The notes under the pieces: generated by a model
Database searches by the model: none
What the model saw: only the letters and a program-made list of their open reading frames with translations
Told to the model about the DNA's origin: nothing
Program-made: the position numbers and the translations under genes
DNA from: Promicromonospora sukumoe 327MFSha3.1
GTDB taxonomy: Bacteria > Actinomycetota > Actinomycetes > Actinomycetales > Cellulomonadaceae
Assembly (NCBI RefSeq): GCF_000385135.1
Contig: NZ_ARQM01000010.1
Span: forward strand, 248,001-312,000
Length of the DNA stretch: 64,000 bases
Reading direction: 5' to 3'
Shown here: positions 21,879 to 39,167 of the stretch, in pieces
How positions within the stretch are numbered: position 1 is the stretch's first letter
Layout: the number at the start of each line of letters is the position of its first letter

Positions 21879-21902
21879 GCGGGGGTGAGCAAGGAGGGTC
21901 AC

Positions 21903-23567: not shown

Positions 23568-24985
23568 GCGTCGAGTCGATCGTCCAGGCGGTGTACCTGG
23601 TCGCGGCGGTGCTGTTCGTGCTGTCGCTGGCCGGGCTGTCGCGGCAGGAGAGCGCGCGCCGCGGCGTCCTGCTGGGCATGACCGGCATGGGGCTCGCGCT
23701 GGTCGCGACGATCGCGCTGGCGCTGGACCGCTCCGAGCGGCCCGTGGGCGTCACGGCCGGGCTGATCCTGCTCGTGCTGCTGGTGGGCGCGGCCGTCGGC
23801 ACGTGGCGGGCGCGCACCGTCGAGATGACGCAGATGCCCGAGCTCATCGCGCTGCTCCACTCGTTCGTCGGCGCGGCCGCCGTGCTCGTGGGCTTCGGCT
23901 CCTACCTCTCCGAGCCCGCCACGAGCGGGGCGGACGCCGGCGCCGGCCAGACCGTCCACCTGGTCGAGGTGTTCCTCGGCGTGCTCATCGGCGCCGTGAC
24001 GTTCACCGGCTCGGTGGTCGCGTTCGGCAAGCTGTCGGCCCGGCTGCGCTCGTCGCCGCTGCTGCTGCTGGGCCGCAACTGGCTCAACCTCGCCGCGCTC
24101 GTCGCCTGCGCGGGCCTGCTCTGGTGGTTCCTGGTGGCCGGCCCGGCCGGCCTGGTGCCGCTGCTGCTGATGACCGTGGTCGCGCTGGCCCTGGGCTGGC
24201 ACCTGGTGGCGGCGATCGGCGGCGGCGACATGCCCGTCGTCGTCTCCATGCTGAACTCCTACTCGGGGTGGGCGGCCGCGGCCGCCGGGTTCATGCTGGG
24301 CAACGACCTGCTCATCATCACGGGCGCCCTGGTCGGCTCCTCGGGTGCGATCCTCAGCTACCTCATGTGCAGGGCGATGAACCGCTCGTTCGTCAGCGTG
24401 ATCCTGGGCGGGTTCGGCGCCGAGACCCCGGCGGCCGCCGCGGGCGGCCCGGCCGAGCCGGGCACCTACCGGGAGACGACGGCGCTCGAGGTCGCCGACC
24501 GGCTGACCGCCGCCCGGTCGGTGATCGTGGTGCCGGGCTACGGCATGGCCGTGGCGAAGGCCCAGTACCCGGTGGCCGACCTCGTGTCCCGGCTCACCGC
24601 GCGCGGCACCACCGTGCGGTTCGGCATCCACCCCGTGGCCGGGCGGCTGCCCGGGCACATGAACGTGCTGCTCGCCGAGGCGAAGGTGCCCTACGACCAG
24701 GTGCTCGGCATGGACGAGATCAACGACGACTTCCCCGAGACCGACGTCGTGCTGGTGATCGGGGCCAACGACACCGTGAACCCGGCCGCCCAGGACGACC
24801 CGGCGTCGCCCATCGCGGGCATGCCCGTGCTGGAGGTGTGGCAGGCTCGCGAGGTCGTCGTCTTCAAGCGGTCCATGGCCACCGGGTACGCGGGTGTGCA
24901 GAACCCGCTGTTCTTCCGCGAGAACACCGCCATGCTCTTCGGCGACGCGAAGGAACAGGTGGAACTGATCGTCCAGGCGCTGTGA
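23564..24985 (+). CDS. pntB: NAD(P) transhydrogenase subunit beta
   Basis: 473 aa, ATGA-coupled to pntA. About eight to nine membrane helices are followed by the NADP(H)-binding domain III, with [38 protein letters not shown] and [14 protein letters not shown], all hallmark segments of PntB. It completes the proton-translocating transhydrogenase that supplies NADPH. Length is typical. Confidence 0.96.
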
Positions 24986-25079: not shown

Positions 25080-25126
25080 GGGGCGCGCCAGGAAAGTCCG
25101 GCGTAGTCCCTCAGTGCGGAGGCCGA

Positions 25127-25555
25127 GTGTTGACACGCTCTCTCGTGACCGGAACGGCCGCGATCGTGGGGTTCCTGGTGCTTGTGGCGACCACGGAGCT
25201 CTTCTGGTTCGGGCCGCCCTCCGGCGCGCACAATGCCGGTGAGATCTTCGCCTCGATCGGCGGCGCCGCGCTGACCGTCCTCACCTGGGCGGTCGTCGGC
25301 TGGGGGGTCGCGCGGATCGCGCGGGCCCTGCGCCTGACACGGGTGTCCGTGCTGGTGGGCATGCTGGCGCCGGTCGGCGCGATCGTGGCCTTCACGCTCT
25401 CGGTCGAGCTCGACGCGTGGTCCACCGGGTTCGGCGTGCTGGCGTTCGCGTCGGCGTCGGCCGGTGTGCTGGTGACGATCCGCCGCCGCAGGTCGGCCGG
25501 GACCACCGCGCTGCCCGAGTCCAAGGGGCACCCTCCGGTGCGGATGGCCGCGTGA
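25127..25555 (+). CDS. Small membrane protein of unknown function
   Basis: 142 aa, GTG start, four predicted membrane helices and a basic C-terminal end (IRRRRSAGTT). No family is recognised. Its stop overlaps the start of the panE-like gene (GTGA at 25552-25555), so the two are translationally coupled. The function cannot be inferred beyond membrane location. Confidence 0.75.
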   Translation: MLTRSLVTGTAAIVGFLVLVATTELFWFGPPSGAHNAGEIFASIGGAALTVLTWAVVGWGVARIARALRLTRVSVLVGMLAPVGAIVAFTLSVELDAWSTGFGVLAFASASAGVLVTIRRRRSAGTTALPESKGHPPVRMAA

Positions 25556-26442
25556 GCGACGTGCCGGTCGCGGTGATCGGCCCCGGCGCGATCGGCGGGC
25601 TGATGGCCGCGCTCCTGCAGCGCGCTGGGCACGACGTCACCGTCGTCGCCCGGGAGGCCACCGCCGCGCACATCGCCGAGCACGGTCTCGACGTCGTCTC
25701 CGACATGTTCGGTTCGTGGCACGCACCCCTGGCGGCGTCCACCACGGTGCCGCGCGGCGCCCAGGTGTTGGTCGCGGTCAAGGCGGACGGCGTGGCCGCG
25801 GCCGCCGACCTGCTGCGCGACGCCGACCCGGCCGAGGTGATCGCCCTGCTCAACGGCGTCGAGCACATGGCGGCGCTGCGCGCTGCGGCGCCCGGGGCGC
25901 GCGTCTTCGGCGCGACGATCGCCGGCCAGACGCGCCGCACCCCCGTGGGCGGGCCGGACCCGGCGACGGTCACGCACTCGTTCGACCTGCTGACCATCGT
26001 GGTGCCCGACGACGCCGCGGACCTCGGCCTGACCGCCGCCCTGCGGGACACCGGCGCGGTGCTGCGGACCGGCGGCACCGAGGCCGAGGTGCTCTGGAAG
26101 AAGCTGCGGTTCCTGGCGGCCCTGTCGCTGCTGACCTCGACGTGGAAGACCGGGATCGCCGACGCACTGGACCGCGACCCGGCGCTCACCGCCGCCCTGC
26201 TCGACGAGATCGCCGCCGTCGCCACGGCCGAGGGCGTGCCGTCGACCGGCGCGGAGCTGCGCACGCTGCTCGGCGGGATGCCGCCCCTGACGGTCGGTTC
26301 CCTGGAGGCCGACCTGTCGGCCGGGCGGCCCGGCGAGCTGGACGCGATCGGCGGCGCGATCCTGCGCGCGGGCGGTCGGCACGGCATCGACCTGCCGGTG
26401 CTCACGGCGGCGGTGGACCGGCTGGCGGCGTCGGTCGCCTGA
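25552..26442 (+). CDS. 2-dehydropantoate 2-reductase family protein (panE-like)
   Basis: 296 aa, GTG start. The N-terminal NADP-binding motif is VIGPGAIGGLMAALLQRAGHDV, followed by the ketopantoate reductase helical domain with WKKLRFLAALSLLTS, which holds the family catalytic Lys. Members reduce ketopantoate to pantoate in coenzyme A synthesis, although many paralogues act on other keto acids. With no other pantothenate gene nearby the exact role is uncertain. Confidence 0.88.
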   Translation: MSDVPVAVIGPGAIGGLMAALLQRAGHDVTVVAREATAAHIAEHGLDVVSDMFGSWHAPLAASTTVPRGAQVLVAVKADGVAAAADLLRDADPAEVIALLNGVEHMAALRAAAPGARVFGATIAGQTRRTPVGGPDPATVTHSFDLLTIVVPDDAADLGLTAALRDTGAVLRTGGTEAEVLWKKLRFLAALSLLTSTWKTGIADALDRDPALTAALLDEIAAVATAEGVPSTGAELRTLLGGMPPLTVGSLEADLSAGRPGELDAIGGAILRAGGRHGIDLPVLTAAVDRLAASVA

Positions 26443-26540: not shown

Positions 26541-26614
26541 CCCCACTTTTTCGAGGCCTAAGTTTCTTCGCTTTGAGCTGGCTCAAAGCGAAGAAACTTA
26601 GGCCTCAAAGGGGA
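26541..26614. repeat. Family B palindrome, copy 5
   Basis: Arms of about 33-38 bp with a 2-base loop (26579-26580); the stem extends to GAGC/GCTC at the tip. It lies between the convergent panE-like and first condensation-like genes. Confidence 0.92.
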
Positions 26615-26655
26615 GGTCGACCAGCGGATGGGCGGCCGGGGTCAGCGGCCCGACC

Positions 26656-28110
26656 TCACCAGAAGCGGACCGGGAGCCGGTGTCGCGCGTACACGCTCTC
26701 GACCGCCGCCCTCACCTGGGCCGGGGTGCCGAGCCGGGCGTCGTCCAGCCCGAGCACTGCCAGCGTCGCGATGCCGTTGTGCTCGGACCACCAGGAGTCC
26801 AGCCCGCCGCGCATCTGCCGCAGCCGCCCGCGCGTGAGCCCCTGCGTCACGCCGCGCATGAGCACGCTGGAGGCCGGCGTCCCCATCGGGGCGGCGAACG
26901 CCGCGGGCAGCCGCCCGAGGTTGGAGGCCAGGCAGAGCGGCGCGGTGCCGTCGCGCGCCGCCATCTTGGCGACGGCGTCCGGCACCATCTGCATGAGCGG
27001 CTTGAGCGGGCCCAGGGTGTCCACCCGGGTGCCCGAGGTCAGGGCCGCGAACTCAGCCTTCGCGCGGGACCGGATCTGGGTCATGTCGGCGATCACGCCG
27101 GCCCGCTCGGGCGCGGGCGTCACCGTGGTGTCCACGGCGATGGACACGCCCGAGGTCGCGTTCGACCGCAGGTCGCCGGGCTCCCGCAGGCTCACGGGCA
27201 GCGAGACGCGCACCGGCATCCCGGCCGTCGCCGCGCCGGCGGCGAGCAGGATCTCCGTGCACACCGCGATGAGCAGGCTGTTCGCCGTCCCGCCCGCGGC
27301 GTGGGCCGCGCGGTGCCAGGTCGAGGCGTCGGTGTCGACGACGACGATCGGCGGGTGGGCGAGCTCGGCGTCGTCGGGGCGCGGGGCGGGCCGCGGCCGG
27401 TCCGCCGACTGCTGTGCCATGATCGGCGGCACCGAACCCTGCCGCGCCATCTTGCGCAGCCCGCCGACGGCGGCCCGCGCCTGGCTCGTCGCGTCGCGCA
27501 GGTCGGCCACGAGCCCGGTCCGGATCCGCTCGCCCTCCTTCGGCAGGCGACGGCCCGACGACGACGGCGCGCCCTCGGCGTACCCGCCCGCGAACGCCCC
27601 GCGCGCGGCGGCGCCGGCGACGGCGGCCTCGAAGGCGCCCACGTGCATCCCGCCGTCGGCCACGACGTGCGAGGTGACGAAGCTGAGCACGGTCCCGCCG
27701 CTGGTGGTCCGCGCCGCCGACAGCGCCCAGGTGGGGCCGGTCTCCGGGTCCAGGTTCACCTGCGCCTGCTGCTCGGCCCAGGCCAGCACCGCGGGCTCGG
27801 GCACGGGCGCGGAGCCGATGAGCAGGTCGGGCAGCCTGGTCGACGCCGACCAGCGGGCGCGGGCGCCCGGCAGGCGGCCCGGCCGCACCACGCGCTGCAG
27901 CGGGCCCTCGGCCAGGGCGCGGTGCAGGGCGCGCAGCGCGTCGACGTCGAGGGGCGCCGGGATGCGCCAGACGGTCTGGTTGACCACGGCCACCCCGAGC
28001 ACCCGGCGGGTGCGCAGGAACAGGTCGTCGTCGTAGGTCAGGCGGTTGCTCGTCACGGGGGAGCGGGTCGTCGGCGGACTGTTCGGCGGGCTGGTCACTG
28101 GGCTGGTCAA
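26656..28110 (-). CDS. Condensation/WS-DGAT-like acyltransferase A
   Basis: 484 aa from TTG 28110, selected because GGAGA lies 4 nt upstream of it. The protein opens with a wax-ester-synthase-like segment (TYDDDLFLRTRRVLGVAV) and has the HxxxDG active-site motif as TSHVVADGG with H148 and D152. The late ASNLG block resembles the SN-x-PG block of WS/DGAT enzymes. Such folds transfer acyl groups from CoA or carrier thioesters to alcohols or amines. It is a paralogue of protein B (29516-31072) and shares a 38-bp divergent gap with the glycosyltransferase gene. Substrates are unknown. Confidence 0.8.
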   Translation of the reverse strand: MTSPVTSPPNSPPTTRSPVTSNRLTYDDDLFLRTRRVLGVAVVNQTVWRIPAPLDVDALRALHRALAEGPLQRVVRPGRLPGARARWSASTRLPDLLIGSAPVPEPAVLAWAEQQAQVNLDPETGPTWALSAARTTSGGTVLSFVTSHVVADGGMHVGAFEAAVAGAAARGAFAGGYAEGAPSSSGRRLPKEGERIRTGLVADLRDATSQARAAVGGLRKMARQGSVPPIMAQQSADRPRPAPRPDDAELAHPPIVVVDTDASTWHRAAHAAGGTANSLLIAVCTEILLAAGAATAGMPVRVSLPVSLREPGDLRSNATSGVSIAVDTTVTPAPERAGVIADMTQIRSRAKAEFAALTSGTRVDTLGPLKPLMQMVPDAVAKMAARDGTAPLCLASNLGRLPAAFAAPMGTPASSVLMRGVTQGLTRGRLRQMRGGLDSWWSEHNGIATLAVLGLDDARLGTPAQVRAAVESVYARHRLPVRFW

Positions 28111-28136
28111 GGGATCTCCGGTGCCGGGCTGGTGGG

Positions 28137-28142
28137 TAGGGT
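28137..28142 (+). promoter_or_regulatory. -10 box for the glycosyltransferase gene, leaderless type
   Basis: TAGGGT, 6 nt, then GTG 28149. It lies within the 38-bp gap that also holds the ribosome-binding site of the divergent acyltransferase A gene, so the two promoters must overlap the neighbouring coding regions. Confidence 0.55.
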
Positions 28143-28148
28143 GCGCGC

Positions 28149-29504
28149 GTGCGTCATGTCTTTGCCCTGGTGGGCAGTCGAGGAGATGTCCAGCCGGCCC
28201 TCGCGGTCGCACTCGAGCTGCGGCGGCGCGGGCACGAGGTGGTGACCGGCGTGGCCCCCAACCTGGTGCCGCTGGCCGGCCGGCTCGGCCTGGACCCGGT
28301 GCCGCTGGGCATCGACTCCGCGGCCCTGCTGGGCTCGGACCTCGTGCGGCGCGACATGCGGTCGGCCCACCCGGTGCGGCGGGTGCGGGCGCTGCGCGCC
28401 GTGGCGTCGGCCGGCTGGGACGAGCTGCGCACCGGGCTGACGGCGCTGCTCGACGACGTGGGCGGCGCAGACACGGTGGTCACGGGCCTGCTGGGCCAGG
28501 AGGTGGCCGCGGCCGTCGCCGAGCGGCGCGGCCTGCGGATGGCCGCCCTGCACTACTGCCCGGTGCGGGCCAACGGCGTGGTCTCGCCCGTCAGCGGCGT
28601 GCGCGGCCCGCGCACCACCCGGGCGGTCTGGACGCTGGGGGAGCGGGTGCGCTGGGGCCTGACCCGCCGCGCCGAGAACGAGCAGCGCGCCGCGCTCGGG
28701 CTCGGCGGCACGCGCGTGCACCTGCCCACGCGGCTGCGCGACGCCGGGGCGGTCGAGGTCCAGGCCTACGACCCCGCGCTCGCGCCGGGGCTGGTCGACG
28801 AGTGGGGGCCGCGGCGTCCGCTCACGGGGTTCCTCGCGCTGGACGACGCCGCCCGGGCGCGGCTCGGAGAGGCCGGCTCGGCTTCCGGGGCCGACGGCGG
28901 CGGGGCGGGCGCCTCGGCGAGCCTCGACACCTGGCTCGACGACGGCGAGCCGCCCGTCTACGTGGGCTTCGGCTCCATGCCCGTGGCCGACCCGCGCGCC
29001 CTGCTCGCGGCCGTCGAGGCGGCCTGCGCCGAGCTCGGCGTGCGGGCCCTGGTCAGCGCGGGCTGGAACGACTTCTCCGGGTCGGACGGCGGGGCGGATC
29101 GCCCCGGTGCCGGGCCCGACGGCGCGGCGCGCGCCGCCGGGCCGGACCCCGAGCGGGTGCGCGTGGTCGGCGCCGTCGACCACGCGGCCGTGCTGCCCCG
29201 CTGCCGCGCCGCGGTGCACCACGGCGGAGCCGGCACGACGGCGGCCGCACTGCGCGCGGGCCTGCCCGCCGTCGTCGGCTGGTACTCCGCCGACCAGCCG
29301 ATGTGGGGCGACCTGCTGCGCGGCACGGGCGTGGGCGTGGCCCGCCGGGCGAGCACGCTCACGCAGCCCGGAGTGCTCGCCGGGGCGCTTGCCGAGGTGC
29401 TCGACGAGGCCACCGCGGCCCGCGCCGCCACGCTCGGGGCGCGCCTGGTGCCCCCGGACCGGGCGGTCGCGGCGGCGGCCGACGCGGTGGAGGACGGGGC
29501 CTGA
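28149..29504 (+). CDS. GT1-family (UGT-type) glycosyltransferase
   Basis: 451 aa, GTG start. The N-terminus HVFALVGSRGDVQPALAVAL matches macrolide, glycopeptide and sterol glycosyltransferases. The C-terminal nucleotide-sugar signature reads VDHAAVLPRCRAAVHHGGAG then GLPAVVGWYSADQPMWGDLL. It should move a sugar from an NDP-sugar to a small lipophilic acceptor. It lies between two WS/DGAT-like paralogues, and its stop is 11 bp from that of protein B. This suggests a product that is both glycosylated and acylated. Confidence 0.9.
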   Translation: MRHVFALVGSRGDVQPALAVALELRRRGHEVVTGVAPNLVPLAGRLGLDPVPLGIDSAALLGSDLVRRDMRSAHPVRRVRALRAVASAGWDELRTGLTALLDDVGGADTVVTGLLGQEVAAAVAERRGLRMAALHYCPVRANGVVSPVSGVRGPRTTRAVWTLGERVRWGLTRRAENEQRAALGLGGTRVHLPTRLRDAGAVEVQAYDPALAPGLVDEWGPRRPLTGFLALDDAARARLGEAGSASGADGGGAGASASLDTWLDDGEPPVYVGFGSMPVADPRALLAAVEAACAELGVRALVSAGWNDFSGSDGGADRPGAGPDGAARAAGPDPERVRVVGAVDHAAVLPRCRAAVHHGGAGTTAAALRAGLPAVVGWYSADQPMWGDLLRGTGVGVARRASTLTQPGVLAGALAEVLDEATAARAATLGARLVPPDRAVAAAADAVEDGA

Positions 29505-29515
29505 ACCCCGCCCTC

Positions 29516-31072
29516 TCACCACGGCGCCGCCGGGAGCTTCCAGGCCTCGGCCTCGGCCAGCACCAGGCGGCGCAGGGTCGCGGCGTCGGCCACGCGGTCG
29601 GGGTCGAGGGCGGCGACGCTGAGCGTCGTCGTGCGGCCCACCGTGGTGCAGAACGCGACCAGCCCACCGCCCGCCGCGCGCAGCTCGGCGGCCGTCGCGC
29701 CCTGGTAGTGCGACAGGGTCGCGACGGAGCGCACCGCGGTGCCCGCCGCGTGGGTGTACCCCTCGGGCGGGCGGCCCAGGTTGGACGCGAGGGCCGCCGC
29801 GACCGGCGGCTGCGGCAGCCGGCTCACCAGGGTGTCGGGCAGCATCTGCACCAGCTCGAGCGGCACCGGGGCCAGCCCGGCCTCCGCCTGCCCGACGGCG
29901 GTGTAGGCCTCCTTGGCGGCGGCCCGCACCCAGCCGAGGTCGCGGTGGGCCAGGACGTCGGCCGGGATGGTGACCCGAGCGATCTTGGTCGAGTTGGCGC
30001 GCGGGTCGTCGGCGTCGCGGGTCGAGACGGGCAGCGCCACGGGCACGGGCTCGCCCGGGAACCGGCCGGTCGCGTGCACCAGGCGGGCGAGGAACGCCAC
30101 GAACCAGGTGTTGGGCGTTCCGCCGTGCGCGGCCGCGGCCTGGGTCACCTGGTCCGAGGGCAGCTCGACGTGCAGTACGGGCGCGCGCCAGGCGGCGTCG
30201 TCGGCGGGCTGGGGTGCGGCCTGGGCGACGGCGGCGGGAACCGGTGCGCCCGGGCCGACCGGCTCCGCCGCGGTACCCGGAACGATCCCCGGCCCGTTCG
30301 GCGCACCCACCACCGCGGGCATGACCCGGGTGGCCGGCCCCGCCCCGGCGTGGCCGGCGACCCCGGCGGCCTCCCCGGCCTCCGGCGGGGGCGGCGGCAC
30401 CGGCTCGTGCACCGTGCCCGCGGGTGCCCGCGTGCCCCCGATCTCGCGCGCGGCGGACTGCGCCCTCGCCCGCGCCTTGGCCCCCGCCCAGCGGCCGACG
30501 GCGGCGGCCTGCGCCGCGGCGTCGGCGGCGTCGGCGAGCAGGGCGCGGGTGCCGCGCTCGGGCGCGGGCACCACGATGGGCTCGGCGTTCGTGGCGGCGC
30601 GCACCACGGCGTCGATCAGCGCGGCACCGTCGGCGACGGCGTGCGCGCAGGTGAGCGAGACGACGCCCCCGACGACGGTCCCGGCGGCGCCGGTGCCGGC
30701 CCGCGCCACGACGTCCGCGGCGGAGATGCGCCAGGAGAGCCCGCGGGCCGGGTCGAGTGGCACGTCGGCCTGGGTCTGCGCCCAGTCGCCGAGGCGGTCC
30801 TCGGCCACGGCCGTGGTCTGCAGGTCCACCACCGGGAGGGTGCCGGCCGGCGCCCAGCGGTGCCGCGCGCCCGGCACGCGGGAGCGCACCACGCGCCGGT
30901 GCAGCGACCCCGCGGCGAGGCGTGCGCCCAGGTCACGCAGCCGGTCGGCGTCGAACGGGCCGTCCAGGCGCCACAGCACCTGGTTCACGGCCGGGCTCGT
31001 GGCGCCCTCGTGGCGGCGCAGGAACATGTCGTCGGCGAACTGCAGGCGCAGTGCGGGTGGCGGGTCCGTCAC
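29516..31072 (-). CDS. Condensation/WS-DGAT-like acyltransferase B
   Basis: 518 aa, GTG start with GGGAG 7 nt upstream. A paralogue of protein A: start block LRLQFADDMFLRRHEGA, active site CAHAVADGA with H144 and D148, and the late ASNLGRPPEGY block. It carries an extra Pro/Ala/Gly-rich, probably disordered stretch at about residues 215-300 between the two lobes of the fold. Catalytic His and Asp are kept, so an active acyltransferase is expected. Confidence 0.8.
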   Translation of the reverse strand: MTDPPPALRLQFADDMFLRRHEGATSPAVNQVLWRLDGPFDADRLRDLGARLAAGSLHRRVVRSRVPGARHRWAPAGTLPVVDLQTTAVAEDRLGDWAQTQADVPLDPARGLSWRISAADVVARAGTGAAGTVVGGVVSLTCAHAVADGAALIDAVVRAATNAEPIVVPAPERGTRALLADAADAAAQAAAVGRWAGAKARARAQSAAREIGGTRAPAGTVHEPVPPPPPEAGEAAGVAGHAGAGPATRVMPAVVGAPNGPGIVPGTAAEPVGPGAPVPAAVAQAAPQPADDAAWRAPVLHVELPSDQVTQAAAAHGGTPNTWFVAFLARLVHATGRFPGEPVPVALPVSTRDADDPRANSTKIARVTIPADVLAHRDLGWVRAAAKEAYTAVGQAEAGLAPVPLELVQMLPDTLVSRLPQPPVAAALASNLGRPPEGYTHAAGTAVRSVATLSHYQGATAAELRAAGGGLVAFCTTVGRTTTLSVAALDPDRVADAATLRRLVLAEAEAWKLPAAPW

Positions 31073-31259
31073 GCTCGTCTCCCGGGTCGGATACCGGTCC
31101 CGAGGGGACCGTGGGCTTCAGCATGTGACCATACCGGGCATTACGGGGGGACTAACTTTCACCCGGCGAATCCGGTATAAAGGTCGCCGCAAGGGGACCG
31201 CGGAACTCGTCCGACGTCGTGCTGGCCGTGCCCACAGACCGATCGAGGGACGCGCACGC
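31073..31259. promoter_or_regulatory. Divergent promoter region of acyltransferases B and C
   Basis: 187 bp. TATAAA at 31176-31181 inside GGTATAAAGG is a likely -10 box for the plus-strand operon; TAACTT 17 nt upstream is a weak -35 candidate. GAGGGA before the ATG at 31260 is the ribosome-binding site. Confidence 0.5.
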
Positions 31260-32720
31260 ATGGAATACACCGAGCTGTCGGCCTACGACCTGCCCGCCGG
31301 AACCGTGACGTCCTGGACGCCACGCGCCGACGCCGGGCGGTGGCAGCAGGACCCCCGCGCGCTGTCCCCGGGGCACGAGGCGCACCTGCGCGACTCCGCC
31401 CCCGGGTCCTGGATCGGGTCGGTGCTGCGCGTGCCCGGACCGTACGAGCCCGAGCCGCTGCGCCGCGCGATCCACGCCTGGGTGAGCCGGCACGAGGTGC
31501 TGCGCACCACCGTCACCCGCGACGCCGGCGCCGGCTGGCGGCGCGTGACCGCCCCCGCCGAGGCCGTCGCCATCCGCGACCTCGTGGTGGGCGACCTGAG
31601 CGCCGACCAGGTCACGGCGCTGCTGCCCAGCCTGCTCGCCGACGTCTCGCCGACCGCCTGGCCGCACTGCGTGCTGGCCACCGTGGTCCCCGCCGCCCCC
31701 GGTGACGGCAGCGGCCCGGCCGGCGACGACGGCTTCGTGCTCGCCTTCGGCGCCGACCACTCGGTCATGGACGCCTACTCCCAGCTCCTGTGGTTCGAGG
31801 AGATCGTCTCGCTGTACGACGCCGCCCGCCGCGGCGTGCCCGACGCCGAGCTCCGCACCCTCGAGGTGGGCTCCCACGTCGACTTCTCCGCCGACGACCG
31901 CAAGCTCGCCATGACGCTCGCCGCCGACGGCGAGCCCGTGCACCGCTGGCTCGACTTCCTCGGCGCCGACGCGACCTTCCCGCGCTACGGCACGGTCACC
32001 CGCCCCGCCGCCGACGCCGCCGAGGCGGGCCGCCCGCAGGCGTCCCGCTCGGCGTGGCTCGCCACCGTGGACCAGACCGACGACCTCAGCGCCCGCAGCC
32101 GCGCCCGCGGCGCCTCCGCCCAGTCGGGCGTGCTGGCCGCGTTCGCGCACGCCGCGCGCAAGGTGCACGGCCTGGACCGGCTCCGGTTCGTGCTGCCGAT
32201 GCACACCCGCTACGCGCCGCAGCACGCCGCCGCCGTCGGCTGGTACGTGGGCCTGTGCCCCGTGGACCTCGACCTGACCGGCACCGACCCCCTGCTGCGG
32301 GAGGTCGACGGTCGCGGCGGCCCGGCCCGCATGGTCGACGGCGACGCCCTGACCACCGCCGTCGAGCGCGTGCACGCCGCGGTCGCGGCCGGCAAGCCCC
32401 TGGTGCGCTACTCGTTCGCGCGCATCGCCGAGCTGGGCGGCATCACCGACGGCCCCCACCTCGCCGTCTCGTACGTGGACACCCGCTTCGTGCCCGGCGC
32501 CGAGCGCTGGAGCGCCTGGGACGCCCGCACCCTCCGCAGCCCCGCGTACGGCACCGACGAGCTCTACCTCTGGTTCCTGCGCACGCACGACGGGCTGAAC
32601 GTCTCCACCCGCTACCCCGACACCCCGGAGGCGCACTCCGCCATGGACGCTCTGATCGAGGAGCTGCGCGCCGGCTTCCGGGCCTTCGGCACCGCCGGCA
32701 CGATCGGGGCGGTCGCATGA
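31260..32720 (+). CDS. Stand-alone condensation-domain-like protein C
   Basis: 486 aa, ATG start. It begins like NRPS condensation or PapA-type proteins (LSPGHEAHLRD, then WVSRHEVLRTTV) and its active-site motif is FGADHSVMDAYS with H167 and D171; the usual Gly after Asp is Ala. No carrier or adenylation domain is attached. The gene overlaps the next one by ATGA, giving a tightly coupled C-D-E series. PapA-like proteins esterify lipids or polyketides; a similar role here is inferred. Confidence 0.82.
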   Translation: MEYTELSAYDLPAGTVTSWTPRADAGRWQQDPRALSPGHEAHLRDSAPGSWIGSVLRVPGPYEPEPLRRAIHAWVSRHEVLRTTVTRDAGAGWRRVTAPAEAVAIRDLVVGDLSADQVTALLPSLLADVSPTAWPHCVLATVVPAAPGDGSGPAGDDGFVLAFGADHSVMDAYSQLLWFEEIVSLYDAARRGVPDAELRTLEVGSHVDFSADDRKLAMTLAADGEPVHRWLDFLGADATFPRYGTVTRPAADAAEAGRPQASRSAWLATVDQTDDLSARSRARGASAQSGVLAAFAHAARKVHGLDRLRFVLPMHTRYAPQHAAAVGWYVGLCPVDLDLTGTDPLLREVDGRGGPARMVDGDALTTAVERVHAAVAAGKPLVRYSFARIAELGGITDGPHLAVSYVDTRFVPGAERWSAWDARTLRSPAYGTDELYLWFLRTHDGLNVSTRYPDTPEAHSAMDALIEELRAGFRAFGTAGTIGAVA

Positions 32721-34252
32721 TCCTGGGCGCCATGGGTACCTGGACCGCCCTCCCCGGGCGGGTGGTCCACCTGCGGCCGACGCCGGAGGCGCTCGCCGCC
32801 GCGCAGGCCGCCCCGGTGGACCCCGGCCCGCCGTCGTTCCTGCAGGGCGACCACCTGCGCGCCTACGCGGCGCGCCGCGCGTCCGGCGGCACGCACCGCG
32901 CCTGGACCGGCACCGCGACCCACCTCGACGGGCCGTTCGACGGCGCCGCGCTCGCCCGCGCCCTGACCCAATTCGTGCGGCGGCACGAGGGCCTGCGCAC
33001 CTGGTTCGACGTCGACCCCTGCACCGACGGCGGCGCCCCGGTGCGGCACCTGGTGCCAGCGGACGTCGTCGGCTTCACGGCCGAGCCCGTGCCCGCCCTC
33101 TCGCCGGCCCCCGGCCTGTCCTGGGACGAGTGGGTCACCGGGCACCTCACCGCGACCTTCGACGCCGCGTGCCGCCCCGACTCCTGGGCGCCGTTCGCGC
33201 TCGGCGCCGTGGTGACCGACGACGGGTTCGGCCTGTTCTGGGGCTGCGACCACGCGTTCACCGACGGCGGGTCGCAGCTCATGGTGCTCAGCGAGATCGA
33301 GGAGCTGTACGCGGCGGAGCTCGCCGGCTCGGACGCGGACGCCGCCCGCGGGTCGAGCCTGTCGAGACCCGAACCGCCGCCCACCGTCGGCTCGTTCCTG
33401 GCGCACGCCAGCGCGGAGCACGAGCTCGCCGCGGCGACCCCGCCCGACGCGCCCCAGATCCAGGCCTGGTCCGCGGCCGTGACCGCGCACGCCGGCAAGC
33501 TGCCGCAGTTCGCGCTGGACCTGGGCCTGCCGCCCGGCGAGACCGCGCCCGTGAAGATCCGGTCGGCGACCCTGCTGGACGCCGCCGGCCTCGCCCGCAT
33601 GGACGAGCTCGCCGCCGCGCACGGCGCCCGGTTCACCGGTGCGGTGTTCGCGGGGATCGCGCTCACGGACACCCGGCTGACCGGCGCGGACACGTGGTTC
33701 GGCGTGACCGTCGTCGGCACGCGCGGGCCCGGCTTCGAGACCGCCCAGGGCTGGCTGTGCAACTTCGCGCCAGTCACCTTCCCCGTGCCCGACGGCGCCG
33801 GCCCAGCGCCGTTCGACGCCGTCCTGCCGGTCGCGGACGCCGCGTTCCGCCAGGCCCGGAAGGCCGCCGAGGTGCCGGTGCACGCAGCGCTCGGCGTCAT
33901 GCTCGCCGGCGGCGTGCTCGACCCGGCGTCGCTCGGCAGCCCGCAGCTCATCAGCTACCTCGACCTGCGGCGGTTCCCCGGCGTGGGCCGGCCCGCGTAC
34001 GACAACGGCCTGCACTTCACGGGGGAGGGCCGCACCGCGAACGCGTCGCTGTGGGTCAACCGTGACCACGAGCGGCTGTACGTCGTCACGCAGACGCCGG
34101 ACACCCCCGCGGCGCAGGCCGCCGTGGACCGCTACCTCGCCGAGCTGCGGGCCACGTTCGCGGCGGCGGTCGCCGCGCCGGGAGCGCCCGGCGCGGGCGA
34201 CGCCGTCCGGGACGAGCGCCTGGAGGCGACCGGTGCGGGTCCTGTCGGCTGA
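32717..34252 (+). CDS. Stand-alone condensation-domain-like protein D
   Basis: 511 aa, ATGA-coupled to protein C. Condensation-type features are FVRRHEGLRTWF and the active-site motif WGCDHAFTDGGSQL with H179, D183 and G184, the most complete HxxxDG of the three plus-strand proteins. Near residue 215 the coding sequence includes a perfect copy of the 19-base family E repeat (33351-33369), read as a GSSLSRPEP linker. The C-terminal end overlaps gene E by 20 bp. Confidence 0.82.
   Translation: MILGAMGTWTALPGRVVHLRPTPEALAAAQAAPVDPGPPSFLQGDHLRAYAARRASGGTHRAWTGTATHLDGPFDGAALARALTQFVRRHEGLRTWFDVDPCTDGGAPVRHLVPADVVGFTAEPVPALSPAPGLSWDEWVTGHLTATFDAACRPDSWAPFALGAVVTDDGFGLFWGCDHAFTDGGSQLMVLSEIEELYAAELAGSDADAARGSSLSRPEPPPTVGSFLAHASAEHELAAATPPDAPQIQAWSAAVTAHAGKLPQFALDLGLPPGETAPVKIRSATLLDAAGLARMDELAAAHGARFTGAVFAGIALTDTRLTGADTWFGVTVVGTRGPGFETAQGWLCNFAPVTFPVPDGAGPAPFDAVLPVADAAFRQARKAAEVPVHAALGVMLAGGVLDPASLGSPQLISYLDLRRFPGVGRPAYDNGLHFTGEGRTANASLWVNRDHERLYVVTQTPDTPAAQAAVDRYLAELRATFAAAVAAPGAPGAGDAVRDERLEATGAGPVG
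33351..33369. repeat. Family E 19-base repeat inside condensation-like gene D
   Basis: GGTCGAGCCTGTCGAGACC, identical to the inverted copy in pntA at 23057-23075. Confidence 0.92.
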
Positions 34253-35570
34253 CCTCTGGGCGCCGGCGCCGGGCCAGGTGATCACCTGGGACGTCACGCC
34301 GCGCCCGGGATTCGTGCCGACGTCGGCCACACCCACCTACAACCAGCGCAACCACCTGCTGGGCGCTCACGCCGGCGAGCCGAGCGTGTGGATCACCGCC
34401 GCGTTCGACGTCGACGGGCCCGTGGACCGCGACGCGCTGGAGGCCGCGTTCCGCGACCTCGTGGCCGCCCACCCGGGCCTCCGGGTCGAGGCGGTCCGCC
34501 GGCCGGCCCCGCAGGCCGTGGGTCTGGTGCGGCACGATGCCGCCGGGCTGGCCTGGCACCGCCACGACGGCCCCGTCACCAGGACGGCCGACGACACCCG
34601 CGAGCACCTCGCAGCCGAGCTCTCCCGCCGGTGCGCACCGTTCGGCTACCCGGCGTTCCTGCCCGCCGCGGTCAGCCGCCCGGACCGGTCGACGGTCGTG
34701 CTCGGCATGGACCATCTGCACACCGACGCCTGGTCGACCACCGTCGTCGTCGACGAGCTGGCGGCCCGGTACGCGGAGCACGCGGGGGAGGGCGGCCCTG
34801 TCGGGCGCGGCGGCCCCGCAGAACTGCCCACCGCCGCCGGCCCGCCCTTCGTCGGCGCCGACGACCCGCGCCTGGCGACCTGGCACGGGTTCCTGCGCGA
34901 CCGCGGCTGGGCGCTGCCCACGTTCCCGCTGCCCCTCGGCGTGCCCGACGGCAAGCGGGCGCCGCAGCGCACCGTCGTGCGCCCGCTGGCCGACGCCGCG
35001 ACCGCGGACGCCGTCGCCGGGCGCGCCCGCTCGGCCGGCGCGTCGACGTCGGCGGCCGTGCTGGTCACCCTCGCCCGCGCCGTCGCGGACCTGGGCGGGC
35101 CCGCCACGCTGGAGACCCTGCTGCCAGTGCACACCCGCGGCGACGACGCCGCCCGCCGCGCCGTCGGCTGGCACACCACCACGGTGCCGCTGCGGATCGA
35201 GACCGGCGACGACGCCGACGGCGCGCTGGCCGCCACCGGCAAGGCCCTGCGGGCCGCGCGCGAGCTGGCCGCCGTGCCGCTCGAGCAGGTCGTCGAGACG
35301 CTGCCCGGCCCGCTGCGGTTCCCGCGCGTCGACATCTTCCAGGTGTCCTACCTGGACTACCGGCGGCTGCCCGGGCACGCGGCGTCCGCCGGGCGGGCCG
35401 CACACCACGTCTCGGCCGCGACCCGGGCCGACGACCTCCAGGTCTGGGTGTCCCGCACCGACGAGGGCATCGCGGTGCGCGCCCGCATGCCCCGCACCCC
35501 GACGGCGGTCGCCACGGTCGACGCCGTCCTGGCCCGCTGGTCGGAGCTGCTGACCACGCTCGCGGGCTGA
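34233..35570 (+). CDS. Stand-alone condensation-domain-like protein E
   Basis: 445 aa from GTG 34233, overlapping gene D by 20 bp; upstream in-frame sequence is only the shadow of D. Motifs are FRDLVAAHPGLRVEAV and LGMDHLHTDAWSTTV with H161 and D165; Gly after Asp is replaced by Ala. Length equals a single condensation domain. It ends the acyltransferase series, 75 bp before a regulator gene. Confidence 0.82.
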   Translation: MRVLSADLWAPAPGQVITWDVTPRPGFVPTSATPTYNQRNHLLGAHAGEPSVWITAAFDVDGPVDRDALEAAFRDLVAAHPGLRVEAVRRPAPQAVGLVRHDAAGLAWHRHDGPVTRTADDTREHLAAELSRRCAPFGYPAFLPAAVSRPDRSTVVLGMDHLHTDAWSTTVVVDELAARYAEHAGEGGPVGRGGPAELPTAAGPPFVGADDPRLATWHGFLRDRGWALPTFPLPLGVPDGKRAPQRTVVRPLADAATADAVAGRARSAGASTSAAVLVTLARAVADLGGPATLETLLPVHTRGDDAARRAVGWHTTTVPLRIETGDDADGALAATGKALRAARELAAVPLEQVVETLPGPLRFPRVDIFQVSYLDYRRLPGHAASAGRAAHHVSAATRADDLQVWVSRTDEGIAVRARMPRTPTAVATVDAVLARWSELLTTLAG

Positions 35571-35633
35571 GCCCGCCTCCGGGGCGTCCCGGGGCAGGGG
35601 GCATCGGGGGCGACGCGGCAAGCGGCGCCGTCC

Positions 35634-35639
35634 TACCCT
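35634..35639 (+). promoter_or_regulatory. -10 box for the ArsR-type regulator gene, leaderless type
   Basis: TACCCT, 6 nt, then ATG 35646, with no Shine-Dalgarno sequence. It gives the regulator its own promoter behind the acyltransferase operon. Confidence 0.6.
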
Positions 35640-35645
35640 GCCTGC

Positions 35646-36236
35646 ATGGCTACCGACGACGTCCGCACGCTCACCGAGGCCCGGGCGGTCGCGGCCCTGA
35701 CCAACCCGGCCCGTTCCCGCCTGTTCGACTCGCTGACCGCCGACGGGCCGGCCACGGCGTCGACCCTGGCGGAGCGCACGGGGCTGGCCGTCGGGAGCAT
35801 CAGCCACCACATGCGGGTGCTGGCGTCCGCCGAGCTCGTCGAGGAGGCGCCGGAGCTGGCCCGGGACCGGCGCGAACGCTGGTGGCGGCGGGCTTCGCGG
35901 TCCATCACCTGGGGCCGGTCGACCCTGCCGCCGGACGCGGAGAGCCAGCGGCAGGCCGTGGCCGCCGAGGAGTTCATGCTGGCGCGCCAGGTCGAGCGCG
36001 CCCGCGCGTGGCTGGAGCGCTCCGAGCAGGACGACGAGTGGAGCCGGGCCGAGCTCTCGACCGACAGCTGGCTGCGCCTGACCCCCGGCGAGCTGGAGCA
36101 GCTGAGCGCCGAGATCAACGAGGTGGTGCTGCGCTGGAAGGAGCGGGGGCGCGCTGCGGCGTCGGACGAGAAGGCGGCCGAGGAGGGCGCCGAGCACGTC
36201 TTCTTGTTCGCGCGTGCTTTCCCGTCGCGCCCGTAG
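35646..36236 (+). CDS. ArsR-like winged-helix transcriptional regulator
   Basis: 196 aa. The N-terminal winged helix reads LTNPARSRLFDSL then TASTLAERTGLAVGSISHHMRVL, as in ArsR/SmtB-type and related HTH proteins. The rest is helical and charged, with an AA/EE-rich tail; the metal-binding Cys cluster of true ArsR sensors is absent, so it probably senses an organic ligand. It sits directly before an MFS exporter gene whose promoter carries two GTTGTACA repeats, its likely operator. Confidence 0.88.
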   Translation: MATDDVRTLTEARAVAALTNPARSRLFDSLTADGPATASTLAERTGLAVGSISHHMRVLASAELVEEAPELARDRRERWWRRASRSITWGRSTLPPDAESQRQAVAAEEFMLARQVERARAWLERSEQDDEWSRAELSTDSWLRLTPGELEQLSAEINEVVLRWKERGRAAASDEKAAEEGAEHVFLFARAFPSRP

Positions 36237-36265
36237 CCCCGCCCCGCCACGGTTCCACAATGACT

Positions 36266-36295
36266 GTTGTACAAGAGTGGTTGTACATATAGCCT
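36266..36295 (+). promoter_or_regulatory. Promoter and operator of the MFS exporter gene
   Basis: TTGTAC (-35), 17 nt, TAGCCT (-10, 36290-36295), then 6 nt to ATG 36302: a strong leaderless promoter. Two direct repeats of GTTGTACA (36266-36273 and 36280-36287) start 14 bp apart; the first covers the -35 box and the second lies in the spacer, so a bound regulator would block RNA polymerase. Confidence 0.72.
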
Positions 36296-36301
36296 GCTCG
36301 C

Positions 36302-37570
36302 ATGACGACGTCGACCACGCCCGCCGAGCCCGCCGTTCCCCTGACGCGCAACCGGGCCTTCGGCCTCCTCTGGCTGGGGGAGGGCGTGAGCGTGGTCGGC
36401 AACGCGACGACGTCGGCCCTGCTGCCGCTGCTCGCGGTGACGCAGCTCGACGCGGGTCCGGCCTGGATGGGCCTGATCACCGCGGCCGCGTGGCTGCCCT
36501 GGCTGCTCATCGGGCTGCCCGTGGGCGCGTGGGTCGACCGGCTCCCGGCCCGGCCGGTGATGATCGTCGCCAACCTGGCCGCCGGCGTCTCGCTCGCGAG
36601 CGTGCCCGTGGCGTTCGTGCTCGGGGCCCTCACCCTGGTGCAGCTCACGGTGGTCGCCCTGGTGGGCGGGGTGAGCACCGTCTTCTTCCGTACGGCCTAC
36701 CAGGTGTTCCTGCCCGAGGTGGTGCCGTCGGGCCAGCTCGAGGCGGCGAACGCGCGCCTGTTCGGCACCGAGTCCGCGGCGAACGTCGCCGGCCCCGGCC
36801 TGGGCGGCCTGCTGGCGCAGTGGCTGACGGCGGCGCTCGGGCTCGCGCTCGACGCCGCCACATTCCTGTGGTCGGCGGTGTGCCTGTGGCGCATCCGGGT
36901 CCCGAACCCGGCAGCCCGGCCCGCGGGCCCGGCCGAACCGCTCGCCGCACGCATCCGGGAGGGCGTCGACCTGGTCCGCCGGGACCGCTACCTCCCGTGG
37001 TTCGTGGGCATGGGCGGCGCGTCGAACTTCGGGCTCACCGGCTACGGGGCGCTCCTGGTGCTGTTCCTGGTGCGCGACCTCGGGCTCACGGAGGCCGGCG
37101 TCGGCGCGGTGCTCGCGCTGGCGGGCGCGGGCGGCGTCGTCGGCGCGGTCGCGGCCCCGTTCCTGAGCGCGCGGCTCGGCAGCGGGCGGGCCTCGACCGT
37201 GCTGCTCGTGGTCTCCGGGCCGACGGCGCTGCTCGTGGGCGCGGGCCTGCCGGGCTGGGGCGCGGCGATCAGCGGGGCCGGCGGGTTCCTGGTCGGCCTG
37301 TGCGTGGTCTCGGGCAACGTGGTCCGCAACGCGTGGCGCCTGCGCTACGTGCCCGCCGGGCTGCGCGGGCGTGTGATGACGGTGATGCAGGTGGTCAACT
37401 TCGGCACCATGCCGGTGGCCGGCGTCGTCGCGGGCTGGTTGGGCGGGGTGCTCGGGGTGCGCGAGACGATCCTGCTCATGGCGGCGGTGCACTGCCTCGC
37501 CACGTGGAGCGTGCTGGTCTCGCCGCTGGCGCGCCTCCGCGAGCTGCCCGAGGGCCCGCTGGGCGGCTGA
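36302..37570 (+). CDS. MFS exporter, enterobactin-exporter/tetracycline-like group
   Basis: 422 aa, twelve predicted membrane helices. The loop 2-3 segment PVGAWVDRLPARPVMI is the MFS motif A variant (GxxxDRxxRR). Proteins of this group export small hydrophobic metabolites or drugs. Being placed after the regulator and the acyltransferase genes, it may export their product or give self-protection; this is inference. A family A palindrome follows 22 bp after the stop. Confidence 0.9.
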   Translation: MTTSTTPAEPAVPLTRNRAFGLLWLGEGVSVVGNATTSALLPLLAVTQLDAGPAWMGLITAAAWLPWLLIGLPVGAWVDRLPARPVMIVANLAAGVSLASVPVAFVLGALTLVQLTVVALVGGVSTVFFRTAYQVFLPEVVPSGQLEAANARLFGTESAANVAGPGLGGLLAQWLTAALGLALDAATFLWSAVCLWRIRVPNPAARPAGPAEPLAARIREGVDLVRRDRYLPWFVGMGGASNFGLTGYGALLVLFLVRDLGLTEAGVGAVLALAGAGGVVGAVAAPFLSARLGSGRASTVLLVVSGPTALLVGAGLPGWGAAISGAGGFLVGLCVVSGNVVRNAWRLRYVPAGLRGRVMTVMQVVNFGTMPVAGVVAGWLGGVLGVRETILLMAAVHCLATWSVLVSPLARLRELPEGPLGG

Positions 37571-37592
37571 CCGGCTGCGCCGGTCAGGCAGA

Positions 37593-37648
37593 CGAACGTA
37601 GGGGTGGTCGCACTCTCAGGGCTGAGAGTGCGACCACCCCTACGTTCG
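37593..37648. repeat. Family A palindrome between MFS exporter and mqo
   Basis: Perfect 26-bp arms (37593-37618 and 37623-37648), 4-base loop. It lies between convergent genes and is a likely bidirectional transcription stop. Confidence 0.92.
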
Positions 37649-37676
37649 ACTGCTTCCGCGCGACGGGAGCCGGCGG

Positions 37677-39167
37677 TCAGGCGCCGGCGGCGACCTTCTC
37701 CGCCGGGGCGAGCTGGGCCGCGTCGTAGTCGACGCCGCCGAGGCTCGGCATCATCGAGTTGAGCTGCGGCTTCCACTTCGCGTAGTCGGCGGGGAAGCAG
37801 CGCTCCAGCAGGCCGGTCATCGCGGCGACGGCGGTCGACGCGCCCGGGGAGGCGCCCAGCAGGCCGGCGATGGTGCCGTCGGCGGAGGCCACGACCTCGG
37901 TGCCGAACTCCAGCACGCCGCCCTTGCCCTTGACCCACTTGATGACCTGGACGCGCTGGCCCGCGGTGATCTTCTCCCAGTCGGCCGGCTGCGCCGTCGG
38001 CATGAAGCGCTGCAGCTCGTGGAACTTGGTCTCCGGGGCGGCCGCGACCTGGCCGACGAGGTAGCCGGTGAGGTCGAGGTTCTTCACGCCGGCGCCGAGC
38101 ATCGAGAACACGTTGTGCAGGCGCAGCGACGTGATCAGGCCCAGGTACTTGCCCTTCTTGAGGTACTTGGGGCTGAACCCGGCGTACGGGCCGAACATCA
38201 GGTAGCTCTTGCCGTCCACGATGCGCGTGTCCAGGTGCGGCACGGACATCGGCGGTGCGCCGACGTCGGCCTTGCCGTAGACCTTGGCGTTGTGCTGGGC
38301 CACGATCTCCGGGTTCGCGGTGCGCAGGAACTCGCCCGAGATCGGGAAGCCGCCGTACCCGCGGGCCTCCTTGATGCCCGAGGCCTGCAGCAGCGGCAGC
38401 GCGCCACCGCCCGCGCCGACGAAGACGAACTTCGCGGTCACGGTGCGGCGCCGGGTGCCGGCGTTCCAGGAGCGGTCGTTCAGGGTGAGGCGCCAGCGGC
38501 CGTCCCGCAGCTTCTTGAGGCCGCGCACCTCGTGGTTCACGTGCAGCTCGGTGTTGCCCGAGGTGGCGAAGCCGATCAGCTTCTTGGTGAGCGCGCCGAA
38601 GTCGACGTCGGTGCCCGCCGCGGCGCGCGTGGCGGCGATGGGCTCGTCGGCGTCACGGTCCAGCGTCATCAGCGGGGCCCACGTGCCGATGACGGCGGGG
38701 TCGGAGCTGAACTCCATGTCGCGGAACAGCGGGTGGGCGCTCAGCGCGTCGAAGCGGCGGCGCAGGAAGTCCACGTTGTCGGCCCCGCGCACGAACGTCA
38801 TGTGCGGCGTGGGGTTGATGAAGTCGGTGCCCTCCATCAGACCGGCGGTGAGCAGGTGGTTCCAGAACTCGCGGGAGGTGTGGAACTGCTCGTTGATCTT
38901 CACCGCCTTGGAGATGTCGACGGAGCCGTCCTTGCGCTCCGGGGTGTAGTTCAGCTCGCAGAGGGCGGCGTGGCCGGTGCCCGCGTTGTTCCACGGGTTC
39001 GACGACTCGAGGGCCACCTCGTCGAGGCGCTCGTAGATCCCGACACGCCAGGTCGGCTCGAGGATCGTGAGCAGCGCGCCGAGGGTGGCGCTCATGATCC
39101 CTCCGCCGATCAGCGCGACGTCGACCTCTTCGGAGGGACGAGGGGCTGTCTGGAGGTAAGAAGTCAC
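37677..39167 (-). CDS. mqo: Malate:quinone oxidoreductase
   Basis: 496 aa, GTG start at 39167. Signatures include DVALIGGGIMSATLGALLTI (FAD Rossmann motif), ESSNPWNNAGTGHAALCELN and the C-terminal QRVQVIKWVKG. It is a membrane-associated FAD enzyme that oxidises malate to oxaloacetate and reduces quinone, standing in for or adding to malate dehydrogenase in the TCA cycle. A TATCTT box 7 nt before the start and the lack of a ribosome-binding site point to a leaderless mRNA. Confidence 0.96.
   Translation of the reverse strand: MTSYLQTAPRPSEEVDVALIGGGIMSATLGALLTILEPTWRVGIYERLDEVALESSNPWNNAGTGHAALCELNYTPERKDGSVDISKAVKINEQFHTSREFWNHLLTAGLMEGTDFINPTPHMTFVRGADNVDFLRRRFDALSAHPLFRDMEFSSDPAVIGTWAPLMTLDRDADEPIAATRAAAGTDVDFGALTKKLIGFATSGNTELHVNHEVRGLKKLRDGRWRLTLNDRSWNAGTRRRTVTAKFVFVGAGGGALPLLQASGIKEARGYGGFPISGEFLRTANPEIVAQHNAKVYGKADVGAPPMSVPHLDTRIVDGKSYLMFGPYAGFSPKYLKKGKYLGLITSLRLHNVFSMLGAGVKNLDLTGYLVGQVAAAPETKFHELQRFMPTAQPADWEKITAGQRVQVIKWVKGKGGVLEFGTEVVASADGTIAGLLGASPGASTAVAAMTGLLERCFPADYAKWKPQLNSMMPSLGGVDYDAAQLAPAEKVAAGA

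Follow-up and report, generated by a model that had tools for sequence, protein, structure and literature searches.

A recurring unit of five acyltransferases in Promicromonospora and other actinobacteria, with a possible role in glycolipid biosynthesis

PapA enzymes acylate trehalose, with tandem enzymes adding acyl groups one after another to the disaccharide (PMC4183827). Rhodococcus sp. I2R carries three papA3 genes and one papA1 gene on contig 9 that are candidates for its succinic glycolipids (PMC8396431). The fungal mannosylerythritol lipid (MEL) cluster follows a similar division of labor: Emt1 makes a disaccharide, Mac1 and Mac2 acylate it, Mat1 acetylates it, and the major facilitator superfamily (MFS) protein Mmf1 exports (PMC12421966); the fold of Mac2 resembles condensation, PapA5, and BAHD enzymes (PMC10619693). 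A papA3 gene has also been reported near a glycosyltransferase within a nonribosomal peptide synthetase (NRPS) cluster, an arrangement that differs from the five-gene unit described here (PMC13206832). We analyzed a 64,000-nucleotide stretch of Promicromonospora sukumoe 327MFSha3.1 (contig NZ_ARQM01000010.1, positions 248,001 to 312,000; hereafter the window) from a genome of 6.25 Mb. It contains a cassette of five stand-alone acyltransferases (A1 to A5), a glycosyltransferase (GT), a helix-turn-helix (HTH) regulator, and an MFS transporter. The five acyltransferases are distinct and selectively maintained, and make up a single unit whose gene order is repeated across several actinobacterial genera. 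We propose, with a probability of roughly 0.6, that the cassette serves the biosynthesis of a polyacylated sugar amphiphile, i.e., a glycolipid.

Architecture and recurrence of the unit

The cassette occupies a slot between pntA-pntB (21885-24985) and mqo (37677-39167; Mqo Pfam match 5.6e-213), with its genes in this order:

26656..28098, minus strand: A1, stand-alone acyltransferase of about 480 aa with an uncertain start, motif SHVVADGG, no Pfam or NCBIfam model
28149..29504, plus strand: GT, UGT-type (GT-B) glycosyltransferase, 451 aa (EryCIII-like_C 2.8e-15, Glyco_transf_28 1.1e-6)
29516..31072, minus strand: A2, paralogue of A1 (35% identical), 518 aa, motif HAVADGA
31260..32720, plus strand: A3, predicted PapA-type acyltransferase, 486 aa, motif DHSVMDAYS
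32717..34252, plus strand: A4, predicted PapA-type acyltransferase, 511 aa, motif DHAFTDGGS (PapA2 1e-37)
34233..35570, plus strand: A5, predicted PapA-type acyltransferase, 445 aa, motif DHLHTDAWS (PapA2 9.7e-16)
35646..36236, plus strand: ArsR-type winged-helix regulator, 196 aa, optional passenger (HTH_20 1.2e-11, HTH_5 2.3e-6)
36302..37570, plus strand: MFS transporter, 422 aa, optional passenger (MFS_1 4.8e-28)

All eight genes look real, with a GC content at third codon positions of 0.956-0.982 across their coding frames. The overlap is 4 bases between A3 and A4 and 20 between A4 and A5; A2 and A3 are divergent, 187 bases apart, and GT and A2 convergent, 11 bases apart. The middle of A2 is a Pro/Ala-rich stretch of variable length.

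We compared 13 Promicromonospora genomes, the host's own included, and found the A1/A2 family in 11. The loci of G008 and G010 were fragmentary and were left out of the gene counts, so that nine were readable, eight on a single contig and one (G007) split over two contigs, whose ends cut out the central part of A2. A1 to A5 were present in 9/9 and GT in 8/9. The regulator and MFS genes were present in 5/9 and missing in G005, G007, G009, and G011, where the best MFS relative elsewhere was 39% identical or none was found below E 1e-30. In G004 and G012 (2/13) the slot was empty, and only a small conserved frame separated pntB from mqo. Within Promicromonospora, the cassette is a self-contained block that occupies a single slot.

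Outside the genus, we scanned a collection of 84,980 species with two short A1/A2 peptide patterns, a scan that is incomplete by design, and surveyed stretches of up to 10 kb either side with hidden Markov models (E 1e-8). The 18 loci returned comprised nine from Promicromonospora (two from one strain), four from Rhodococcus/Rhodococcoides, two from Saccharopolyspora, and one each from Saccharomonospora, Nocardioides, and Williamsia. Eight of the nine loci outside Promicromonospora (those of Rhodococcus, Nocardioides, Saccharomonospora, and Saccharopolyspora) shared the order and orientation A5-A4-A3, A2, A1; Williamsia had a lone A1-like gene. This recurrence in other genera puts the arrangement beyond chance. 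A check for scattered genes, which the initial annotation had named as a way to overturn its reading, thus failed to do so. GT lay between A2 and A1 in 6/8 unit-bearing loci, and the regulator and MFS genes had no match in these eight. An ABC-2 membrane gene adjoins A1 in L089, L091, G269, G757, and G352. The regulator and exporter, originally counted among the core parts, are therefore optional passengers outside it, and GT, also taken as a part, is frequent in the unit but not constant.

Matches to the A1/A2 family occurred in 16/396 genomes of the phylum. A3-A5-type matches (E 1e-30 or better) occurred in 68/394 genomes of the class, seven of which had three such genes in tandem (our own G000, G269, G332, G352, G641, G673, and G757). 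The five-gene unit is rare and PapA-type genes are common.

The acyltransferases were kept apart by phylogeny as well as by position. In a 63-row tree, A3 (16 rows, 100/99), A4 (15 rows, 100/100), and A5 (16 rows, 97/97) formed separate cross-genus clades. In the A1/A2 tree, A2 formed its own 12-row clade (98/99) and A1 was not resolved as a clade. Proteins of <400 or >560 aa were left out of both trees, hence the missing A1 of L087 in one, and the missing A4 of L137 and cut fourth PapA of L083, L084, L085, and L087 in the other, where L138 and L141 represent the fourth PapA. The A1/A2 tree also left out L079, L081, L090, L092, L093, L127, L131, L140, L141, and L142, and gave no weight to the long-branched A1 of L089 and A2 of L125, rows derived from multi-frame genes; the A3-A5 tree left out L079, L081, L090, L092, L093, L142, and most L141 rows. 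Each enzyme had its own signature (A1 HVVxDGG, A2 HxxADG, A3 DHSVMDAYS, A4 DHAFTDGxS, A5 DHxHxDAxS) that varied slightly in the most distant rows, and the His and Asp of the HxxxD motif were kept in intact orthologues. The 4-base A3/A4 overlap was found in 12/17 loci, the four Rhodococcus loci and G641 being those without it. The ratio of nonsynonymous to synonymous substitution rates (dN/dS) was 0.17-0.34 for the six genes, each compared with two or three relatives, with GT at 0.17-0.20. The retention of five long-separated enzymes side by side points to non-redundant steps.

Families of the five acyltransferases

The HxxxD His and Asp were present in 5/5 acyltransferases: H144/D148 in A2, H167/D171 in A3, H179/D183 in A4, H146/D150 in the 482-aa version of A1, and H159/D163 in the 443-aa version of A5 (H161/D165 from a start two codons upstream). 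The coordinates, sizes, and active-site pairs first assigned from the sequence were right, although the numbering of residues in A1 and A5 shifts with the choice of start codon.

A3, A4, and A5 are stand-alone proteins with the HxxxD active site. A3 and A5 scored above the cut-off of the Pfam Condensation model (38.7 and 48.9 bits) and A4 just below it (29.0 vs 30.6 bits). Among solved structures, PapA2 was the best match of A4 and A5 and, by a narrow margin, of A3 (1.4e-7, against 3.2e-6 for an NRPS C domain). A joint 23-row PapA-type profile matched PapA2 at 7.6e-80 and the best NRPS protein at 2.6e-35; PapA5 (8s6l, 3.2e-12) was farther than NRPS C domains. By these profiles A3 to A5 are of the PapA type and lie nearer the PapA1-3 type than NRPS C domains, clearly so for A4 and A5 and narrowly for A3. 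Eight plasmid records held relatives of A4 at 24-27% identity.

A1 and A2 had no match above cut-off in Pfam or NCBIfam; the Pfam matches of A1 were limited to a sub-cut-off DUF6468 and A2 had none, while the best relevant Pfam match among 21 members of the A1/A2 family was PapA_C at 0.064. A 28-row profile of the family reached a PapA5-type structure at 3.7e-5, and aligned with the PapA-type profile over 370 columns (probability 95.7%, E 9e-9), placing HxxxD on HxxxD, compared with 0.1% for a control against the GT profile. Judged from sequence profiles only, A1 and A2 are distant members of the condensation/PapA superfamily, in a family for which neither Pfam nor NCBIfam has a model. WS/DGAT membership was rejected, as the WES_acyltransf and WS_DGAT_C domains gave no match for A1 to A5 (E up to 5) or for the 21 A1/A2 members (E up to 10). 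The glycopeptidolipid acetyltransferases Atf1 and Atf2 were also dropped as relatives of A1 and A2, on the description of Atf as an integral membrane protein (PMC1885439, PMC10400925).

Relatives of A1 also stand in arrays of another kind. Genomes of family f22, probably mycobacteria, have an A4-side PapA beside one to five A1-family genes. In L129, L130, L132, L133, L135, and L136, one or two PapA genes lie beside two to five A1-like genes, with MmpL detected by Pfam in L129 and L133, and L134 has a polyketide synthase (PKS) near its array. The f22 arrays differ from the unit in that no A3 or A5 orthologue was found in the surveyed stretches and the A1-like copies formed their own 18-row group. 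These A1-like genes may represent an undescribed enzyme family in lipid-export loci.

Proposed function and its alternatives

In the proposed pathway, A3, A4, A5, A1, and A2 would each use the HxxxD His to acylate a specific hydroxyl of a small sugar with acyl-CoA as the donor, and five regiospecific transfers would yield up to five esters on it. GT, where present, would make or extend the acceptor sugar; carriers without GT would either draw on a preexisting sugar, for example trehalose, or rely on a GT encoded elsewhere. Since A1 to A5 are retained in the GT-less carriers, trehalose or another preexisting acceptor is an attractive idea. The trehalose-phosphate synthase family was present in 7/7 genomes tested, carriers or not, which shows availability only. 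Export would fall to the transporter at hand, MFS here and ABC-2 type in Nocardioides and Saccharomonospora. The initial annotation had already suggested a multiply acylated glycolipid or glycosylated metabolite; like it, we infer the product, as well as the sugar and the acyl donor, the last most simply being acyl-CoA from PapA precedent.

The cassette resembles mycobacterial PapA1, PapA2, and PapA3 in its stand-alone HxxxD enzymes and in that, among solved structures, PapA2 comes closest to A3, A4, and A5, but combines three PapA-type enzymes with two A1-family enzymes and a GT. The mycobacterial acyltrehalose loci have dedicated PKS/FadD and MmpL genes, whereas no PKS, FadD, or MmpL was found among the window neighbor proteins scanned. 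The papA genes of Rhodococcus sp. I2R start at offsets 0/1478/2912/5823 (PMC8396431), which fit A3, A4, A5, and a fourth PapA of four Rhodococcus loci (0/1455-1486/2893-2929/5840-5885); the two are likened by spacing alone, and the passages of the I2R paper make no mention of A1, A2, or a linked GT. This fourth PapA is not part of the Promicromonospora unit. In the four Rhodococcus loci (L083, L084, L085, and L087) it has the motif DHSIIDGLS and is separated from A5 by SufE-like and rhodanese-like genes at ~1-2300 (Pfam in L084). The MEL cluster works alike, with a GT, acyltransferases, and an MFS exporter and without carrier proteins, and is likened by function, not gene homology (PMC12421966). 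A MEL-type gene set was found in the window and in four of the other eight readable genus loci, except that G002 is without GT. Loci without the MFS gene do not have it, and the cassette differs in its five acyltransferases and optional MFS. The statement in the initial annotation that no described pathway has this gene set was therefore too strong, given the MEL cluster (PMC12421966) and the four-papA array of I2R (PMC8396431). We recognized no publication describing the whole unit, in a literature search mostly without subscription papers. By analogy, the cassette would be a variant of PapA-type glycolipid biosynthesis whose gene logic has precedents in MEL and the Rhodococcus papA array.

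Several observations weigh against a glycolipid role or against a uniform unit. The unit has no dedicated acyl-activating gene, and the margin by which A3 favors PapA2 is narrow. GT is missing from G002, with a best match elsewhere of 36-37% identity, and was not found in the surveyed stretches of both Saccharopolyspora loci or of G269 and G757, two genomes that share a genus and have the five acyltransferase genes; the GT of G001 is spread over two overlapping frames, possibly through a frameshift. For the GT-less carriers and G001, the term glycolipid would rest on PapA resemblance. The reading frames of A1 and A5 are broken up in Saccharomonospora L089, which suggests frameshifts or decay. 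Other exceptions are G332, a rearranged locus with a pair of GTs; G352, whose surveyed stretch shows another gene order and only one gene of the A1 family; and G641, where three PapA genes stand in tandem and no match to A1, A2, or GT was found within the surveyed 20 kb. Separately, A2 of G269 is read in two frames at ~13160-14480 of L125, and its relative in G757 (L137) as one aligned stretch, which points to a frameshift or assembly error.

Absence of a constant GT also bears on an alternative we consider unlikely, in which GT first glycosylates a hydrophobic alcohol (sterol-, carotenoid-, or hydroxy-acid-like) and the acyltransferases decorate the sugar or the aglycone to give an acylated glycoside. 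The nearest solved structures to the GT family profile, GtfB (1.3e-49) and a sterol 3-beta-glucosyltransferase (2.3e-43), fit such a role, as do the placement of GT between A1 and A2 in most loci outside the genus and its low dN/dS. However, the acyltransferases are kept without GT in G002, both Saccharopolyspora loci, G269, and G757, and no aglycone gene was recognized in the unit. The same GT had the rifamycin-inactivating Rgt as its best NCBIfam match (74 bits, E 9e-21), and the window MFS resembles NCBIfam drug-efflux models, both of which would suit an island for handling xenobiotics or antibiotics, where GT and the acyltransferases inactivate a foreign compound that the ArsR/MFS pair senses and exports. 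We regard this as improbable: the Rgt score is far under the 800-bit cut-off, ArsR/MFS is missing in 4/9 genus loci and had no match in the loci of other genera, and five acyltransferases in separate orthologue clades fit biosynthesis better.

Least probable, to the point of being nearly negligible, is that the acyltransferases serve an NRPS-type or other amide-forming pathway as condensation enzymes, or are remnants of such a pathway, despite the Pfam Condensation scores of A3 and A5 and an A3 nearly as near a C domain as PapA2. A whole-genome search for PF00668 returned four matches, all within A3, A4, and A5, and the joint profile favors PapA2 by many orders. PP-binding matched twice genome-wide, in open frames of 85 aa and 610 aa, neither of which lies in the window. 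A Pfam scan of window proteins at 15397-47865, covering part of the open reading frames, found no adenylation, carrier, ketosynthase, or thioesterase domain among the proteins given to it, in agreement with what had been read from the sequence, adenylation not having been searched genome-wide. The reading as an NRPS remnant was rejected on the PF00668 matches, confined to A3 to A5, on the two off-window PP-binding matches, and on dN/dS of 0.17-0.34 in intact genes; the refuting case of inactive remnants named in the initial annotation was not borne out. The view of the locus as a coherent carrier-less acyltransferase unit was upheld by the confinement of PF00668 to A3 to A5 and by the retention of the unit across genera.

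Returning to the glycolipid proposal, a stronger form, which we hold tentatively and with more doubt than belief, would make the product an undescribed class of bacterial glycolipid, shared by Promicromonospora, Rhodococcus, Nocardioides, and Pseudonocardiaceae. It would be a small sugar carrying as many as five acyl groups, built from ordinary acyl-CoAs by five regiospecific enzymes, with no PKS/NRPS and with A1/A2 as members of an unrecognized acyltransferase family. If so, a compact unit without a megasynthase would make a family of biosurfactant-like glycolipids, for which we know of no responsible genes in these genera. Its five ester-forming enzymes with distinct signatures could be dissected position by position, and the A1/A2 family, also encoded next to PapA and MmpL genes in other actinobacteria, would gain a function. 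It could also give a genetic handle on the unidentified glycolipids contained in Promicromonospora polar-lipid profiles (PMC13274763).

Other features of the locus

Two further features lie beside or within the cassette:

25417..26442, plus strand: ketopantoate-reductase-like gene adjoining A1, whose true start may be downstream (ApbA 1.4e-21)
31151..31237, plus strand: conserved block with TATAAA, 5' of A3 (alignment of seven Promicromonospora loci)

The ketopantoate-reductase-like gene was present in 5/9 readable genus loci and is probably a variable neighbor outside the unit. A frame at 25111-25554 (~147 codons) between pntB and the cassette was conserved, also in the empty-site genomes; its coding strand is uncertain and it had no Pfam match. 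The ~87 bases at 31151-31237, between A2 and A3, were near-invariant across the seven aligned loci and were not seen, by a simple string look, in the A2/A3 gaps of other genera. They are probably the promoter and leader of A3-A5. The RNAalifold covariation term of this leader was unfavorable (+3.43), and we claim no RNA structure.

Two long near-perfect hairpins (26541-26618 and 37588-37652) flank the cassette at both ends between convergent genes. Matches to known RNAs at the cassette, to microRNA models and one insect element, fell at these hairpins far under gathering scores and were rejected as spurious. The hairpins are probably two-way terminators.

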